A stretch of 41,636 nt of DNA from an uncultured Pelagibacteraceae bacterium. GTDB taxonomy: Bacteria > Pseudomonadota > Alphaproteobacteria > Pelagibacterales > Pelagibacteraceae. Below, piece after piece: positions 28,667 through 41,380 of the stretch. How positions within the stretch are numbered: the first letter of the stretch is position 1; each line of letters starts with the position of its first letter. The DNA lies in contig CABYLY010000002.1 of assembly GCA_902519945.1 (NCBI GenBank), positions 109,356 to 150,991 of the forward strand. The letters run 5' to 3'. The notes under the pieces were generated by a model. That model saw only the letters and a list, made by a program, of their open reading frames with translations, did no database searches and was not told where the DNA came from. The position numbers and the translations under genes are program-made.

Positions 28667-29509
28667 TTAATAATTGTTTTTAATGATATCTATCAATTTG
28701 TTAAGTTGGTCCAAATCTTTATATTCTATTGAGATTACACCCTTATTTCTTTTTGAATTCTTGATCAAAACATTTAAACCTATTTTGCTTGATATAGAAT
28801 TTTCTAAATTTACTAAATTTGGATCTTTATGATTAGGCTTAGACCCTCCTCGTTTTTTAAAGATCTTAACAAAGTTTTCTGATTGTCTAACTGAAAGGTT
28901 TTTTTCTATGATTTTATTTGCTACAAATTCTGCATTATCTAAACCAACTAAAATTTTCGCATGACCGGCAGTGATTTTTTTTTCCTTTACTAATTTTAAA
29001 ACTTCTCTTGGTAAGCTTAAAATTCTAAGTGAATTAGTTATATAACTTCGACTTTTCCCAATAAATTTAGAAACCTTGTCTTGGTCATATGAAAAATCGT
29101 CTATAAGTCTTTTGTAACCTTCGGCTTCTTCAAGAGGATTTAAATCATTACGTTGAACATTTTCTACGATAGCGAACTCTAGCGATTTTAAATCATCGAC
29201 ATCTGTAACAACAACAGGTATGTCGTGTAAGCCAGCTTTTTGTGCTGCTAACCATCTTCTCTCTCCAGCTATAATTTCATATTTTGAATTATCAGTTTCA
29301 GATTTTCTGACTATTATTGGTTGAATTACTCCTCTTTCTCTAATTGAATTTGCCAAATCATTTAAATTATCTTGATCAAAATTTTTCCTAGGTTGATACC
29401 TATTTGGTATAATTTCACTTAATGATAATTTATTTATTCTAGTTTCAACTTTCGTTTCACCAATTAAAGATGATAATCCTCTACCCAATCCTTTTTTTAT
29501 TTTATTCAT
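28667..29509 (-). CDS. parB: Chromosome partitioning protein ParB
   Basis: CTP-dependent clamp that loads at parS and spreads on origin-proximal DNA. 280 residues: the N-terminal GLGRGLSSLIGE motif interacts with ParA. IIPNRYQPRKNFD, ELA-type NDLANSIRERGVIQPI and the CTP-binding IIAGERRWLAAQKAG follow. A helix-turn-helix region (KVSKFIGKSRSYITNSLRIL) and a C-terminal dimerisation domain complete it. Downstream of parA with a 1-bp overlap. The likely parS site is 1.4 kb upstream inside rsmG. Confidence 0.97.
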   Translation of the reverse strand: MNKIKKGLGRGLSSLIGETKVETRINKLSLSEIIPNRYQPRKNFDQDNLNDLANSIRERGVIQPIIVRKSETDNSKYEIIAGERRWLAAQKAGLHDIPVVVTDVDDLKSLEFAIVENVQRNDLNPLEEAEGYKRLIDDFSYDQDKVSKFIGKSRSYITNSLRILSLPREVLKLVKEKKITAGHAKILVGLDNAEFVANKIIEKNLSVRQSENFVKIFKKRGGSKPNHKDPNLVNLENSISSKIGLNVLIKNSKRNKGVISIEYKDLDQLNKLIDIIKNNY

Positions 29510-30306
29510 TATGCAGCACTCCCTATTTTGTTTTCCTGATTAATAAATTCATCTGTGAAACTAAAATAAGACTTACTGCCTGGACAATTCTTATCGTATA
29601 TTAAAACAGGAACGCCATGGGATGGCGCTTCTGACAACCTTACATTTCTTGGGATAACTGTTTGGTAAACTTTATCCTTAAAATAATCTCTTGCCTCTTT
29701 TTCAACTTGAGAAGATAACTTATTTCTTTTATCATACATTGTTAAAAGTATTCCCTGTATCTTTAATTCAGGATTTAGATTAATTTTTATTCTTTCAATA
29801 GTTTTCATTAATTGTGTAAGGCCTTCTAATGCAAAGAATTCCGTCTGAAGTGGAACTAAAAGTGAGTTAGAACAAACAAGTGCCATTACTGTTAACAAAC
29901 TTAAAGATGGTGGACAATCTATTAGTATATAATCATAGAATCCTCCAGAATCATTCAAATATGCGGTTAATTTAGCCTTCAAAATAAATGCTCTATCACT
30001 ATCTCCGGCTGTCTCAACCTCCAAACCGGACAAATCTACATTTGAAGTAATTAAATCAAGTTTATTAAACTTGGTTTTTTTGATTACCTCTGAAATTGAC
30101 TTAGTTCCATTCAAAATTCCATAAATGGTCTCATCAGACCGCTCTAAATTTGATAAACCCAGCCCAGTTGTAGCATTACCTTGGGGATCTAAATCAATAA
30201 CTAAAATTTTTTTTCCAAGTTGAGTTAAAGCAGAAGCAAGATTGATTACTGTAGTTGTTTTTCCAACTCCACCCTTCTGATTAATGATAGAAATAATTTT
30301 CATCAA
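29509..30306 (-). CDS. parA: Chromosome partitioning ATPase ParA (Soj)
   Basis: Deviant Walker-A ATPase that moves ParB-parS complexes. 265 residues with INQKGGVGKTTTVINLASAL (P-loop 10-17), VIDLDPQGNATTGLG, ILIDCPPSLSLLTVMAL and the C-terminal SEAPSHGVPVLIYD. No N-terminal DNA-binding extension, so it is the chromosomal Soj type. Overlaps rsmG by 4 bp and parB by 1 bp, as in many bacterial origin regions. Confidence 0.98.
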   Translation of the reverse strand: MMKIISIINQKGGVGKTTTVINLASALTQLGKKILVIDLDPQGNATTGLGLSNLERSDETIYGILNGTKSISEVIKKTKFNKLDLITSNVDLSGLEVETAGDSDRAFILKAKLTAYLNDSGGFYDYILIDCPPSLSLLTVMALVCSNSLLVPLQTEFFALEGLTQLMKTIERIKINLNPELKIQGILLTMYDKRNKLSSQVEKEARDYFKDKVYQTVIPRNVRLSEAPSHGVPVLIYDKNCPGSKSYFSFTDEFINQENKIGSAA

Positions 30307-30947
30307 TTTTTTCTTTCCATTTTTTTGATACTCAACAAAAATGAATTTTCATTGGTTAAACTTTTTTTTTCTTCATAATCTAAATTCCAATTTTTAAGAG
30401 ATTCATTTAAAATTTTTCTTCCACTTTCGCCCATAAATAAAACTAAATTTTTATACTTCTTAAAATTCTTATGAACCAAATCTAAAATTACTGGCATGGG
30501 TTTGAAAGCTCTGGACATAATTGTTCCAGTCTCTATATTTTTAATCTCGAAAATATCTTTTTGAATTATTTCTGTATTCAATCTTAACTTTTTTGATACC
30601 TCCCTTAAAAAAACACATTTATGGTAACTTTTTTCATAGAGTTTTATTTTCATTCTGTTTTTTATTTTTTTCATCAAGATTGCAACAATAAGCCCTGGCA
30701 TTCCACCACCAGATCCTAAATCTGAGGTTGTATTGCTATTTAAATCAATAAAATCAACAATTTGTGCAGAATCAATTATATGTCTATGCCTAATAGCCTC
30801 TTTTTCTGATGTTTTTTTACTAATTATATTGATTTCACGATTTTTTTCTTGGATCATCTTTATTAAGCTCTCAAGCTCATTACAAGTTTCACGTGAAACA
30901 TTAAAGTTGGGAATTTGAGAATAATTTTGTAAAATTATCGAATCCAT
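30303..30947 (-). CDS. rsmG: 16S rRNA (guanine(527)-N(7))-methyltransferase
   Basis: SAM-dependent methyltransferase (GidB) for G527 of 16S rRNA; loss gives low-level streptomycin resistance in other bacteria. 214 residues: NVSRETCNELESL at the N-terminus, INIISKKTSEKEAIRHRHIIDSAQ (cited in part), the SAM motif SDLGSGGGMPGLIVAI, and MSRAFKPMP. The codons for NVSRETC contain the parS palindrome. Overlaps mnmG by 1 bp and parA by 4 bp. Confidence 0.96.
   Translation of the reverse strand: MDSIILQNYSQIPNFNVSRETCNELESLIKMIQEKNREINIISKKTSEKEAIRHRHIIDSAQIVDFIDLNSNTTSDLGSGGGMPGLIVAILMKKIKNRMKIKLYEKSYHKCVFLREVSKKLRLNTEIIQKDIFEIKNIETGTIMSRAFKPMPVILDLVHKNFKKYKNLVLFMGESGRKILNESLKNWNLDYEEKKSLTNENSFLLSIKKMERKN
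30885..30900. other. parS centromere-like site (ParB binding) inside rsmG
   Basis: AGTTTCACGTGAAACA at 30885-30900 matches the universal parS TGTTTCACGTGAAACA at 15 of 16 positions (only the first differs), with a perfect 14-bp palindromic core. It lies in the 5' coding part of rsmG, next to parA/parB and about 8 kb from the proposed oriC. Other alphaproteobacterial rsmG genes carry parS-like sequence in the same VSRET codons. No second copy was seen in the window. Confidence 0.88.
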
Positions 30948-36903: not shown

Positions 36904-37902
36904 TTATATATTTTTTTGAACTAATGATTTTAATAGAGCTATATGATCATCACTGTCATTCAAACATGGAACCATATCGAAATTTTCTCCTCCAGACTCT
37001 AAAAAGCTTTCTTTGCCCTGAATAAGTATTTCCTCTAAAGTTTCTACACAATCTGAAGCAAAGCCAGGACATATTGCTAGAACATTTTTTTTACCTTCAC
37101 TCGGTAATTTCTCTAAAGTCTTATCGGTATAAGGTTCAAGCCATTTTTGGGGTCCAAATCTTGACTGAAAGGTTGTCTTAAGCTCAATTGAGTTAAACTT
37201 TTCTGAAATTAGTCTTGTAGTCTTTTGACAATAGCAATGATATGGATCTCCTTTATCAAAGTATTTTTGAGGTATACCATGATAAGATACCAATATTAAA
37301 TCCGGCTTCCAGTTTATTTGTTTAATTTTTTTATTTAATGAGTTCACCAGTGCATCTATGTACAAAGGATGTGCCTCATAGTGTGGTATTATTTTTATTG
37401 ATGGTTGCCACCGCATTTTCATAAGTGTTCTATATACTTCGTCACAAACAGTTGCCGTTGTTGCTGCTGCATACTGAGGGTATAGCGGCAGTATAACTAA
37501 ATTTTCACAACCTTTTTCATGTAAATTTTTTATTTTACTTTTTATACTCGGGTTCCCATACCTCATAGCATAATCAATAATTACATTTTTTTCAGTTATT
37601 GATTTTGATAATTTATCTGCCTGCTGTCGAGTGTAATATAATAATGGTGATATGTTTTCTTCTTTCATCCAAATTTCTTTATATGCTTTAGCGGTTTTAG
37701 ATGGCCTTAAATTTAATATAAAAACATTCAATATTATTTGCCAAAGCAAAGGATTTACCTCAATAACTCTTTTATCAGATAAGAATTCCTTTAAATATTT
37801 CCTAATATCAAGCCAGCTTGTTGAGTCTGGTGTGCCCAAATTAATTATTAGAACACCTGTTTTGCCAAAATTTACCGGTGGGTGATTAAGTTCTTTTTTC
37901 AT
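36904..37902 (-). CDS. hemH: Ferrochelatase
   Basis: Inserts Fe(II) into protoporphyrin IX. 332 residues: GVLIINLGTPDSTSWLDIRKYL near the N-terminus (cited in part), DYAMRYGNPSI, LPLYPQYAAATTA, the active-site SYHGIPQKYFDKGDPYHCYC (His near 208), FQSRFGPQKWLEPYT, and the catalytic Glu in CPGFASDCVETLEEI. Overlaps hemE by 4 bp and adjoins hemJ, so the final heme steps are co-expressed. Confidence 0.97.
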   Translation of the reverse strand: MKKELNHPPVNFGKTGVLIINLGTPDSTSWLDIRKYLKEFLSDKRVIEVNPLLWQIILNVFILNLRPSKTAKAYKEIWMKEENISPLLYYTRQQADKLSKSITEKNVIIDYAMRYGNPSIKSKIKNLHEKGCENLVILPLYPQYAAATTATVCDEVYRTLMKMRWQPSIKIIPHYEAHPLYIDALVNSLNKKIKQINWKPDLILVSYHGIPQKYFDKGDPYHCYCQKTTRLISEKFNSIELKTTFQSRFGPQKWLEPYTDKTLEKLPSEGKKNVLAICPGFASDCVETLEEILIQGKESFLESGGENFDMVPCLNDSDDHIALLKSLVQKNI

Positions 37903-38903
37903 TGATAATTTTTTACAGTTTTAACTAAATAATCCATTAGATTTGGATCTGTCTCTGGTAAAACTCCATGACCCAGATTAAATATATATGGATGATTTTT
38001 AAAGATATCTAAATATTTCTCTGCCTCTTTTTTAAGGTTTTCTTTATCAGTAAGTAAAATTTTGGGATCCATGCCTCCTTGTACAGGAATAGATATTTCT
38101 TTTTCAATTCTTAATGGGTCCACATTATAATCAATACAAATCACATCTGGTTTAACAATTTCACAATATTTTTTATAGTTTTTAATGTTTCTTGGGAAAC
38201 ATATTACCGGAATTTTTAAAGATTTTACAAAACTTACCAAAGAGTATGTCGGATTATAAACATAAAAATCAAGATCTTTATCACTTAATAATCCTGCCCA
38301 ACTATCAAAAATTTGGATTATTTCAGCACCGTTATTAATTTGATTTTTAATGTGAACCATTAAAAATTTTTCAATAATTTTTAACGTCTGCTGAATTAAA
38401 GCTTTATCTTTAAAAAAATCATTATTTAGACTTAACTTAGGTGATTGTTTGTTAATCATGTAAACCAATAATGTCCAAGGCGCCCCCACAAAACCGATAG
38501 TGCTTTTATTTTCAGTAAGTTTATCATTTTTAACTAAATTAATTGCTTCATAAACAGGGCTAACTTTTGAAGTAAAATCGCTTTCAGTTAACTTAGATAA
38601 ATCATCTAAATTTAAATCACCAAGCATAGGACCAAAATTTTTTTTTAACTCAACTTTTTGGTTGCAGCCATAAGGTAATATCAGAATATCTGAGAATATT
38701 ATTGCAGCATCTAAATTAAATCTTTTTAATGGCTGAAGTGTAATTTCGGCTGCCAATTTAGAATTTAAACATAATTTTATAAAATCTGGATTAGATTTTC
38801 GTATTTTCCTAAATTCCGATAAATATCTACCTGCTTGCCTCATAATCCAAATAGGATTTAATGAAGTTTTTTTATTGATGATCACTTCTTCAATGGGTGT
38901 CAT
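37899..38903 (-). CDS. hemE: Uroporphyrinogen decarboxylase
   Basis: Decarboxylates uroporphyrinogen III to coproporphyrinogen III. 334 residues with NPIWIMRQAGRYLSEFRKIR (active-site Arg pair), IIFSDILILP (catalytic Asp), GFVGAPWTLLVYM, IQIFDSWAGLLS and FNLGHGVLPETDP. First gene of hemE-hemH-hemJ-rho. It borders the gap proposed as oriC, the same position hemE has in Caulobacter and Rickettsia. Confidence 0.97.
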   Translation of the reverse strand: MTPIEEVIINKKTSLNPIWIMRQAGRYLSEFRKIRKSNPDFIKLCLNSKLAAEITLQPLKRFNLDAAIIFSDILILPYGCNQKVELKKNFGPMLGDLNLDDLSKLTESDFTSKVSPVYEAINLVKNDKLTENKSTIGFVGAPWTLLVYMINKQSPKLSLNNDFFKDKALIQQTLKIIEKFLMVHIKNQINNGAEIIQIFDSWAGLLSDKDLDFYVYNPTYSLVSFVKSLKIPVICFPRNIKNYKKYCEIVKPDVICIDYNVDPLRIEKEISIPVQGGMDPKILLTDKENLKKEAEKYLDIFKNHPYIFNLGHGVLPETDPNLMDYLVKTVKNYQ

Positions 38904-38944
38904 ATTAATAATTAAATATAATTAATAGTATTATTAGTATATTC

Positions 38945-38953
38945 TGTGAATAA
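38945..38953 (-). other. DnaA box (perfect TTATTCACA)
   Basis: TGTGAATAA on the plus strand, i.e. TTATTCACA on the minus strand, matching the 9-mer consensus TTATNCACA. It lies 42 bp from the hemE start, next to the AT-rich repeat stretch. Confidence 0.75.
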
Positions 38954-38970
38954 TGATGATTAAATTTTGT

Positions 38971-39003
38971 AAACATTTTTTAAACATTTTATTAACATTT
39001 AAA
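38971..39003 (+). repeat. Three 11-bp-phased AT-rich repeats in the proposed oriC
   Basis: AAACATTTTTT, AAACATTTTAT and TAACATTTAAA follow one another with the central C at 38974, 38985 and 38996, exactly 11 bp apart and so on one DNA face. Placed beside a DnaA box, this is a candidate DNA-unwinding element or weak-iteron array. Confidence 0.55.
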
Positions 39004-39091
39004 GCTTATAATTGATAAATTATACATGAAAAATTGTAGCTTATTGACAAATTTTATAAGTCTAAGGAATATAAATACACATGTTTATTTT

Positions 39092-39100
39092 TGTGAATAA
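39092..39100 (-). other. DnaA box (perfect TTATTCACA)
   Basis: Second exact copy of TGTGAATAA (TTATTCACA on the minus strand), in the same orientation as the box at 38945 and 147 bp from it. A partial CACA-containing box-like sequence (AAATACACA) overlaps 39072-39081 nearby. Confidence 0.75.
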
Positions 39101-39157
39101 AGCTCTTGTTTTACAACAAAAATTTTAAAATGTTTAATAAATTGAATATGATTAGAA

Positions 39158-39173
39158 TAGTAAAATTTTACTA
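39158..39173. promoter_or_regulatory. 16-bp perfect palindrome upstream of the PPSR gene
   Basis: TAGTAAAATTTTACTA, a perfect palindrome 12-27 bp before the ATG at 39185. Too close and too AT-rich to be a terminator, it may be an operator for the ppsR-maf-aroE-coaE operon or part of the origin architecture. Confidence 0.45.
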
Positions 39174-39184
39174 ACAGTTTATAC

Positions 39185-40009
39185 ATGAGTAATACATATC
39201 AAATTTATTTAATTTCAGACTCTACAGGTGAAACTTTAGACAGAATTTTTACAGCAATTAAGGCTCAGTTTAAAAATATAGATTATAAAATTCATACGTA
39301 TTCTTTTACGAGAACCGAGAACCAAATTTTTAAAATATTGTCTGATGCAGAGAAACACCTTAATTCAATAATTTTATACTCAATTGTTGATAGCAATTTA
39401 GCTAAATTTTTAGCTAATACCAGCGAGGATAAAAAAATACCATGTTTTGGAGTTTTGGGAGATTTGATTTTAAGCTTTTCCAAATTATTAAATCAAAAAG
39501 CATCTCATCAACCAAGTGGCCAATACGCTTTAAATGATGAATATTACAAAAGAATTGCGGCCATACAATTTACAATGAATCATGATGATGGAAATTTAGT
39601 TAAAGAATTAAATAAATCTGATATAATTTTATTAGGTGTAAGTCGAACGAGCAAAACCCCTACAGCAATTTATTTAGCAAACAAAGGCTTTAAAACATCA
39701 AACATACCTTTAGTAAATGAAAATTCTATACCACAAACTTTGAAAGAAAATCCAAAAATGGCTTGTGTTATTGGTTTAAATACTGAGCCAGAAAGACTGG
39801 TAGATATAAGAAAAAATAGGATGAATTCATTAAAAGAATCTGAAAATAAATCTTACACAGATATCGAAAATATTAGAAAAGAGGTTGATGAAGCTAAGAA
39901 TACTTTTAGAAAATACAATTGGCCAGTAATTGATGTTACTAGAAAGTCTGTAGAAGAAACAGCGGCCTCTGTAATAAAAATTTACGAAATATACAAGAAT
40001 AATGACTAA
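39185..40009 (+). CDS. ppsR: Pyruvate, phosphate dikinase regulatory protein (DUF299)
   Basis: Bifunctional ADP-dependent kinase/Pi-dependent pyrophosphorylase that inactivates and reactivates PPDK or PEP synthetase by threonine phosphorylation. 274 residues starting YQIYLISDSTGETLDRI. The hallmark P-loop is LLGVSRTSKTPTAIYLANKG (about 149-168), with DVTRKSVEETAASVIKIY near the C-terminus. Whether the target is PPDK or PpsA cannot be read here. It is the gene on the far side of the proposed origin (the RP001/duf299 position) and overlaps maf by 8 bp. Confidence 0.94.
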   Translation: MSNTYQIYLISDSTGETLDRIFTAIKAQFKNIDYKIHTYSFTRTENQIFKILSDAEKHLNSIILYSIVDSNLAKFLANTSEDKKIPCFGVLGDLILSFSKLLNQKASHQPSGQYALNDEYYKRIAAIQFTMNHDDGNLVKELNKSDIILLGVSRTSKTPTAIYLANKGFKTSNIPLVNENSIPQTLKENPKMACVIGLNTEPERLVDIRKNRMNSLKESENKSYTDIENIRKEVDEAKNTFRKYNWPVIDVTRKSVEETAASVIKIYEIYKNND

Positions 40010-40588: not shown

Positions 40589-41380
40589 ATGAAAAAATAT
40601 TTAGTAATAGGAAATCCAATCGATCACTCTTTATCCCCACAATTACACAACCACTGGATAAAAGTTAATAAAATTGAGGCTGTTTATGAAAAAAAAAAGA
40701 TTAATCAAAATGAAATTAAAGACTTAATTCGTGATGTTAAAGACAAAAAAATTTCTGGAATAAATGTTACAGTACCTTTTAAACAAGAAGTCATTACATA
40801 TTTGGATGAACTAACAGACCAAGCTCAAAAAACACAGTCAGTTAATACAATATACTTAGGGACTAATGGAGTGATTGGACATAATACAGATGTTGATGGC
40901 TTTGAAAGCAGTCTCAAAGATGAATACGATCCAAAAAATAAAAATATTTTAATATTAGGTGCTGGTGGAGTAGTGCCATCCATAATTTTTGCACTTAAAA
41001 ATATGAAAGCTGAAAGTATAACAATAAGTAATAGAACTCGAGAAAAAGCAGAAAATTTAAAAAAAAATTTTGGAAACATAAAAATTGTGAATTGGGGACA
41101 AATTACTAATTTTGATATGATTATTAATGCTACTAGTGTTGGATTGAACGCTGAGGATGAAATAAACTTGGATTTTTCAAAAACTAACAATAAATTTTTT
41201 TATGATGTAATATATAATCCAACGGAAACTAATTTTTTAAAGGCCGGCAAAAAGTTTGGAAATAAAATTCTAAATGGAAAATTAATGTTTATTTATCAAG
41301 CATATTACGCATTTAAAATATGGCATAAGCTTTTACCAAAAGTTGATGGCGAAGTTATAAAACTTTTAGATAATGATTAA
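40589..41380 (+). CDS. aroE: Shikimate dehydrogenase
   Basis: NADPH-dependent reduction of 3-dehydroshikimate in aromatic amino-acid synthesis. 263 residues: VIGNPIDHSLSPQLHNHW (substrate Ser pair), NVTVPFKQEV (catalytic Lys), NTDVDGF (catalytic Asp), the cofactor loop LGAGGVVPSIIFAL with SNRTREKA, and INATSVGL. The maf-aroE-coaE order is the usual one beside alphaproteobacterial origins. The stop overlaps the coaE start by 8 bp. Confidence 0.97.
   Translation: MKKYLVIGNPIDHSLSPQLHNHWIKVNKIEAVYEKKKINQNEIKDLIRDVKDKKISGINVTVPFKQEVITYLDELTDQAQKTQSVNTIYLGTNGVIGHNTDVDGFESSLKDEYDPKNKNILILGAGGVVPSIIFALKNMKAESITISNRTREKAENLKKNFGNIKIVNWGQITNFDMIINATSVGLNAEDEINLDFSKTNNKFFYDVIYNPTETNFLKAGKKFGNKILNGKLMFIYQAYYAFKIWHKLLPKVDGEVIKLLDND

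Follow-up and report, generated by a model that had tools for sequence, protein, structure and literature searches.

Does the non-coding gap between hemE and ppsR in a member of the SAR11 bacteria mark the place where the chromosome starts to replicate? SAR11 bacteria rank among the most numerous cells of the ocean. Their replication in situ has been estimated from origin-to-terminus read coverage, which is V-shaped with one origin (PMC9589681). Alignments of SAR11 genomes begin at DnaA, and regions flanking the origin are mentioned in the same work (PMC12421898). Furthermore, oriC of Pelagibacter ubique HTCC1062 is called “manually identified” in a figure legend (PMC4033161), and the origin of a Pelagibacter MAG was set from GC skew, with a growing isolate showing an origin-to-terminus gradient of GANTC methylation (PMC9516812). 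A description of the SAR11 oriC sequence itself was not found in the open literature that was searched; DoriC, which lay outside that search, may hold a prediction. The stretch of DNA analysed here, in the following called the window, comprises 41,636 nucleotides (bases 109,356-150,991 of a 151-kb contig, whose end is also the end of the window) and comes from a genome assembled into 36 contigs with 1.008 Mb at 78% completeness. Among the matches listed, the closest relatives by ppsR are Pelagibacteraceae single-cell genomes with 91% identity. A first-pass annotation of the window, made from the letters alone, had proposed that the hemE-ppsR gap is oriC.

The gap has 281 bp and is, as had been noticed before, the largest between those ORFs of the window that were taken as genes, the runner-up having 185 bp. 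Its AT content of 0.84 compares with an average of 0.708 in the relative G003 and with 0.66-0.74 in the adjacent 1-kb blocks of the window. The gap and the genes that serve as its markers are the following:

38904-39184, no strand assigned: putative oriC, the whole hemE-ppsR non-coding gap, 281 bp, 84% AT, conserved in length
37899-38903, minus strand: hemE, uroporphyrinogen decarboxylase, flanking marker (TIGR01464, E 4e-94)
39185-40009, plus strand: ppsR, the COG1806/DUF299 PPDK regulator, flanking marker (PF03618, E 2e-88; NF003742)
28667-30306, minus strand: parB (28667-29509) and parA (29509-30306) (Pfam ParB_N, HTH_ParB, AAA_31)
30885-30900, no strand assigned: parS-like site AGTTTCACGTGAAACA within rsmG/gidB, differing from the consensus at one position

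The parS-like site belongs to the coding sequence of rsmG/gidB and sits directly upstream of parAB. The outward transcription proposed for both sides holds for hemE (minus) and ppsR (plus), but the leftward block from hemE to parB is not continuous, as a sulfotransferase gene on the plus strand (PF00685, 34270-35130) breaks it between mnmE and rho. In G003, three ORFs with a similar start (MIIW.ASYPK.GNTW) lie at most about 21 kb from the gap. On the right, coaE starts at 41373 and is only partially contained in the window; its name was assigned by eye, on the basis of the P-loop at its start and its position behind aroE. No Rfam family was found at the gathering threshold between 38000 and 40200.

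The gap was compared across the order. A ppsR gene was found in 90 of the 147 genomes drawn from it, the window's own included, and these 90 loci gave 84 clean hemE-ppsR gaps, again with the window's own (L002). Two loci were left out as unparsed (L029, L165) and two because of a miscalled hemE start (L147, L166), and two with a different neighbour were treated apart (L195, L196). The 84 aligned gaps are 261-289 bp long. In a second set, which overlaps with the first and consists of the best 80 of 583 relatives, the hemE-ppsR gap is present in 80/80 with 264-283 bp (median 282). Four genomes of the same genus (G072, G082, G123, G139), 92-96% complete, yielded neither ppsR nor hemE, which is probably due to assembly gaps at the origin, or else to a moved or lost locus. 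The alignment revealed a conserved layout of four DnaA-trios, box R1, three weak boxes at 11 bp, and the boxes R2 and R3. The boxes in the window are:

38945-38953, minus strand: DnaA box R1, TTATTCACA, exact match; core G and T in 84/84 aligned gaps
38967-38975, plus strand: weak phased box TTGTAAACA, from the alignment, 11-bp period
38978-38986, plus strand: weak phased box TTTTAAACA, from the alignment, 11-bp period
38989-38997, plus strand: phased box TTATTAACA, a conserved near-box, 11-bp period
39092-39100, minus strand: DnaA box R2, TTATTCACA in the window, with A at position 6 in most relatives
39168-39176, plus strand: box R3, TTACTAACA, 8 bp before the ppsR start; core C in 81/84

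R1 and R2 are the two perfect boxes seen by the first-pass annotation; they share the minus orientation and are the sole exact TTATNCACA sites in the 41.6-kb window. The AT-rich phased repeats described there were likewise recovered, as three units of the TTNTNAACA type that follow each other at exactly 11 bp (38967, 38978, 38989). Two near-boxes were found, where that annotation had one; TTATTAACA at 38989 is conserved and TTATTGACA at 39041 is not. Both R3 and the DnaA-trios had been overlooked. Counting TTATTAACA-type and phased weak sites, about six sites are conserved, and the “unusually small DnaA-box set” of the first-pass annotation calls for correction.

It has to be considered that such a box pattern arises by chance in AT-rich DNA. 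The source genome contains 42 exact TTATNCACA sites (19 forward, 23 reverse), compared to 20 and 17 for the reversed control, and hence shows no genome-wide enrichment of the exact box over this control. Boxes with up to one mismatch are even fewer in the window than expected by chance (58 vs 68.7), and the pattern TTATNMACA is not enriched in G003 either (216 sites vs 268 for the reversed pattern). The two sites in the gap are the only pair less than 300 bp apart among the 42, and 0.012 exact sites are expected in 281 bp at the genome rate; since about 0.5 close pairs are expected by chance somewhere in the genome, the pair alone is not decisive for an origin. Against chance stand the aligned gaps, in which the register is held across all 84 and exact boxes are about 30-fold more frequent than in shuffled gaps, with a mean per gap of 0.62 vs 0.021 for TTATNCACA and of 1.39 vs 0.040 for TTATTAACA. 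We therefore regard chance as hardly credible as the source of the pattern.

What is conserved are the positions of the boxes rather than their exact letters. The core G of R2 is present in 79/84 gaps, and the core C of the phased units at 38967, 38978, and 38989 in 73/84, 63/84, and 48/84, respectively. Box position 6 switches between C and A: R1 has C in 48 and A in 34 of the 84 gaps, R2 has A in 70 and C in 6, and R3 has A in 69 and C in 8. Accordingly, the exact TTATNCACA occurs at R1 in 30, at R2 in 4, and at R3 in 5 of the 84, whereas the exact TTATNMACA occurs at R1 in 45/84 and at R1, R2 or R3 at least once in 74/84 (none in 10/84). Anywhere in the gap, no, one or two copies of TTATNCACA are found in 40, 36, and 8 of the 84 gaps and in 21, 43, and 16 of the 80 loci of the second set; at least one copy of TTATTAACA is found in 69/84 and 78/80, respectively. 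The conservation of the two perfect boxes, which had been named as a check on the origin, thus holds for their positions and fails for their letters, as R1 and R2 are both exact in only 4/84 gaps, the window among them. Two exact boxes in one gap are unusual (8/84, window included), and the two of the window are one variant of a broader, position-conserved pattern. Since the two letters replace each other at the same conserved positions, the DnaA of SAR11 probably recognises boxes with either C or A at position 6. In domain IV of DnaA (L197-L215), RDHTT is kept in 19/19, and GRDHTT is changed to NRDHTT in the genera g1, g5, and g6. We considered this change as tied to the drift of the boxes and rejected it, because A-type boxes occur in genera with either form.

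Two further motifs were counted in the 84 gaps. GANTC, the site of CcrM, is almost absent: two gaps have one and the window has none, with 0.34 per gap after shuffling. A CcrM homologue is reported in SAR11 (PMC3973325), and the scarcity of its site may mean that the firing of the SAR11 origin is exempt from control by CcrM. The CtrA motif TTAA-N7-TTAA occurs 0.42 times per gap vs 0.22 in shuffled gaps, with no clear CtrA array.

Beside R1, the gap contains a second element of bacterial origins:

38926-38937, minus strand: DnaA-trio array CTA-ATA-ATA-CTA (3'-GAT/TAT-5' type), on the same strand as box R1 and separated from it by 7 nt, on the hemE side

Read on the strand of R1 towards hemE, the order is TTATTCACA-GAATATA-CTA-ATA-ATA-CTA. 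Trios have the consensus 3'-GAT-5' and start at most 16 bp from the box (PMC8287927), and in Helicobacter pylori an array of 5'-CTA-3' trios, in which the middle T is strictly conserved, lies downstream of the DUE-proximal boxes (PMC8235120). In sequence, R1 and the trios together correspond to the basal unwinding system (BUS) of bacterial origins, with at least three trios (3'-NAN-5') within 16 bp of a DnaA box and in the correct polarity. The GC-rich spacer of 4-5 bp known from the BUS is absent, as the spacer GAATATA is AT-rich; such a spacer is not present in all bacteria and is not crucial for unwinding in H. pylori (PMC8235120). R1 ranks first among the 198 box-plus-trio candidates of the window. 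The best box-plus-trio score anywhere in a stretch turned out to be a weak test (10.9 in the gaps vs 6.5 when shuffled, sd 3.5, and 0-14 upstream of dnaA), and for this reason a trio score anchored at R1, with a control flank, was adopted. Over the 84 gaps, which are related sequences and therefore not independent trials, this score has a mean of 10.9 vs 6.0 with the same flank shuffled, with P<0.05 in 48/84. The opposite flank of R1 reaches P<0.05 in 2/84, and the flank of R2 has a median P of 0.76.

Conserved intergenic DNA is often promoter DNA, and with divergent genes starting at both ends the gap could be a mere two-way promoter or regulatory region for hemE and ppsR, perhaps regulated by DnaA, with R3, 8 bp before the ppsR start, as a regulatory site. 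The loci where the neighbour genes change bear on this reading. None of the 16 listed genomes of the sister family f2 yielded a ppsR gene, and hemE was found in 13 of the 14 f2 genomes searched, two of them above the family cut-off. The five fully parsed f2 loci have hemE, a gap of 271-280 bp, and a maf-like gene (by eye). At the hemE-side end of the f2 gaps an ACA-core box, GG (AA in L225), and a CTA-containing tract follow each other in 13/13, with L228 having CAACAACAA instead; runs of at least two CTA separated by CTA/ATA alone are clear in 5/13 (L216, L217, L223, L226, L227) and weaker in 8/13. Conversely, in both genomes of genus g2 (G001, G007; L229, L230) a rho-like gene (by eye) adjoins ppsR, and the best hemE match, well below the family cut-off, is hundreds of kb away; hemE may have been replaced by a divergent copy there. 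The 353-bp gaps of g2 contain TTATAAACA-(TGAC or TTCC)-CTA-ATA-(ACA or ATA)-AAA-CTA, with another box directly in front of ppsR. Thus, the module of R1 and trios is kept both in genomes without a detected ppsR and in those with a distant hemE, a persistence that a hemE/ppsR promoter alone would not need. Moreover, the trios are confined to one flank of R1, and nowhere else in G003 are as many boxes found, so that a promoter function as the whole explanation is highly improbable.

The comparison with G003 rests on 1,199,990 bp in one contig, whose closure is not shown, with the gap at 66,836-67,117. This gap is the densest 285-bp cluster of TTATNMACA on the chromosome (4 sites) and comes first among the 127 stretches outside ORFs that have 150 bp or more. 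The result hinges on the A variant, as the G003 gap has one exact TTATNCACA, and it is not fully independent because the C/A pattern was read from these same gaps. The first-pass annotation had referred to parS and parAB as lying near origins, and a parS-like site was found near the gap in four genomes. The sole parS-like site with at most one mismatch lies 8 kb from the gap both in G003 and on the 151-kb contig of the window, and in the stretches of 200 kb and 170 kb read around the gap the distance to such a site is 9 kb in G013 and 17 kb in G009.

The most serious competitor is an origin at or near dnaA, a gene that often serves as origin marker, about 62 kb off, in which case the gap would be something else. 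The start of SAR11 whole-genome alignments is indeed set at dnaA (PMC12421898), and the best box-plus-trio score upstream of this gene (0-14, often 12) is no lower than the typical best score of a gap. In 17 of 19 genomes searched, dnaA shares a contig with the gap, always at a distance of 60-73 kb, which lies inside the blur of the skew. In the upstream stretches of dnaA no exact DnaA box was found in 17 of the 18 that are readable (L198, with 9 bp, was excluded), and the parS-like site is near the gap and not near dnaA. A weak second match to the DnaA model is present in 19/19 genomes (E 7e-13 to 1e-4); as a guess, it is an Hda-like inactivator.

Base composition, which is not decisive on its own, narrows the origin down to a region that includes the gap as well as dnaA. 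The first-pass annotation had named a cumulative GC-skew minimum in the gap as a check, and this was not borne out: the minimum is 31 kb from the gap in G003, read as a whole, and 31 kb and 18 kb away in the stretches read of G013 and G009, respectively. In G003 it lies half-way between the gap and dnaA, with the skew maximum 50.7% of the way round from the gap, and the window's own minimum is near 6 kb. Raw GC skew was dismissed as a decider, being weak and dominated by gene strand, with minima 18-31 kb off. Neither the offset of the skew nor the unconserved box letters were taken as a refutation of the gap as origin, because skew follows gene strand and C and A alternate at the same sites. 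A strand-corrected GC3 fit in G003 placed the origin at 65 kb vs 67 kb for the gap, and the same strand/replichore fit on purines placed it at 35 kb, with the gap 0.9-1.4 log units worse. A fit on 4-fold GC sites had its sign reversed and gave no usable location. A classifier of leading- and lagging-strand genes (AUC 0.69) separated all 12 right-arm and 13 left-arm windows of 62 kb, which overlap, in G003; when tried on synthetic junctions, it erred by a median of 4.7 kb, and by about 12 kb or more in 24% of cases. By this classifier, the gap scored better than dnaA in G003 (by 8.5 log units) and in G009 (by 10.9), but worse in G013 (by 5.7). Its best points were at 55 kb in G003 (gap at 67 kb; 10.4 log units above the gap), at 1,094.6 kb in G009 (gap at 1,090.2 kb), and at 180 kb in G013 (gap at 234 kb, dnaA at 171 kb). 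On the window's contig the sum between dnaA and the gap is +2.5, where an origin in the gap predicts a negative value, and thus leans slightly to dnaA. Within the genus the classifier is taken as neutral between these two positions.

dnaA is directed away from the gap in 17/17 genomes. In the window's genus it is found on the hemE side (12/12), and the other five genomes have it on the ppsR/maf side. Comparing G003 with the 190 kb read of G009, 166 orthologues lie within 200 kb, 42 of them on the same side of the gap and 124 on the opposite side; the strand is kept in 42/42 of the former and flipped in 124/124 of the latter. The distance from the gap correlates with 0.88 between the two genomes, the signed position with -0.32. 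This order is what nested inversions around a replication origin would leave, with the hemE/ppsR block unmoved; as few events are involved, it is supportive and not conclusive. The inversions span about 90 kb on either side of the origin. Inversions pivoting on the gap account for dnaA being on different sides between genera, and the gap rather than dnaA is the pivot, because dnaA swapped sides yet kept its distance and outward direction. Taken together, an origin at dnaA is very unlikely. The hemE-ppsR gap is, on these comparative grounds, very probably the chromosomal origin of SAR11, as the first-pass annotation had proposed, because its box-trio layout is conserved and is kept when the neighbours change, its boxes are the densest in G003, parS is near, and inversions pivot on it.

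For such an origin the following mechanism can be assumed. DnaA would bind R1, predicted to be its strongest site from the observed match to the box. DnaA-ATP bound at R1 would seed a filament on the single-strand trio array CTA-ATA-ATA-CTA, and by analogy to the BUS of Bacillus subtilis and H. pylori this filament would melt the hemE-proximal AT-rich stretch. The three weak boxes spaced by 11 bp, together with R2 and R3, may load more DnaA-ATP and set the timing, as might be expected from the 2-bp-spaced arrays of Escherichia coli, and R2 and R3 may also help to assemble the complex. Two forks would then depart, one via ppsR-maf-aroE and one via hemE-rho-parAB. Beyond the position of the origin, we lean slightly towards a more specific reading, namely a relaxed or shifted box TTATTMACA, with TTATTAACA instead of TTATNCACA as the usual form, in a minimal, CtrA-free and nearly GANTC-free origin of about 280 bp with one BUS, three phased weak sites, and two outlying boxes. 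If the relaxed box is true, finders that count the exact TTATNCACA might miss the origin in up to about half of the SAR11 genomes. An exact origin would anchor coverage-based estimates of replication and make them testable, compared to a start at dnaA or a fitted coverage minimum. As a small, natural minimal origin it would further allow trios, phased weak boxes, and relaxed box recognition to be tested separately, and a replicating plasmid for SAR11 might be built on the gap.

The order of box, spacer, and trios is the same as in the BUS of B. subtilis and H. pylori, and the polarity is that of the 5'-CTA-3' trios of H. pylori (PMC8287927, PMC8235120). In contrast to the BUS, the window has an AT-rich spacer and a single R1, whereas in several f2 loci two ACA-core boxes adjoin each other and the spacers are GG (by eye). 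The phased units resemble the low-affinity DnaA-ATP arrays of E. coli oriC, in which weak sites also share their orientation, are separated by 2 bp (11-bp period), and have a stronger box nearby (PMC6070618). SAR11 has three conserved units, predicted to be weak, and E. coli oriC two groups of four. The gap also shares features with origins of the same class of bacteria: in line with the first-pass annotation, those of Caulobacter crescentus (Cori) and Rickettsia prowazekii (384 bp) sit between hemE and COG1806 (ppsR), and they are also AT-rich with DnaA boxes (PMC1914354, where Pelagibacter is not mentioned). Class-wide, in the best 30 of 68 genomes with ppsR (among 115), hemE is beside ppsR in 19/30, and the hemE end of several of these 19 loci carries a CCTGTG-like box along with repeats of the TAG or TTG type (L237, L254; by eye). 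Compared to the Caulobacter and Rickettsia origins, the gap of SAR11 is shorter (281 bp) and has no clear CtrA array; ctrA is reported as absent in Pelagibacter (PMC2877005). Moreover, the SAR11 boxes drift to TTATTAACA, whereas the G-box of Caulobacter is TGATCCACA (PMC4285127). The gap is thus very probably a compact and strongly conserved member of the hemE/COG1806 class of origins known from Caulobacter and Rickettsia, of which the drift of the boxes and the lack of CtrA are variations.
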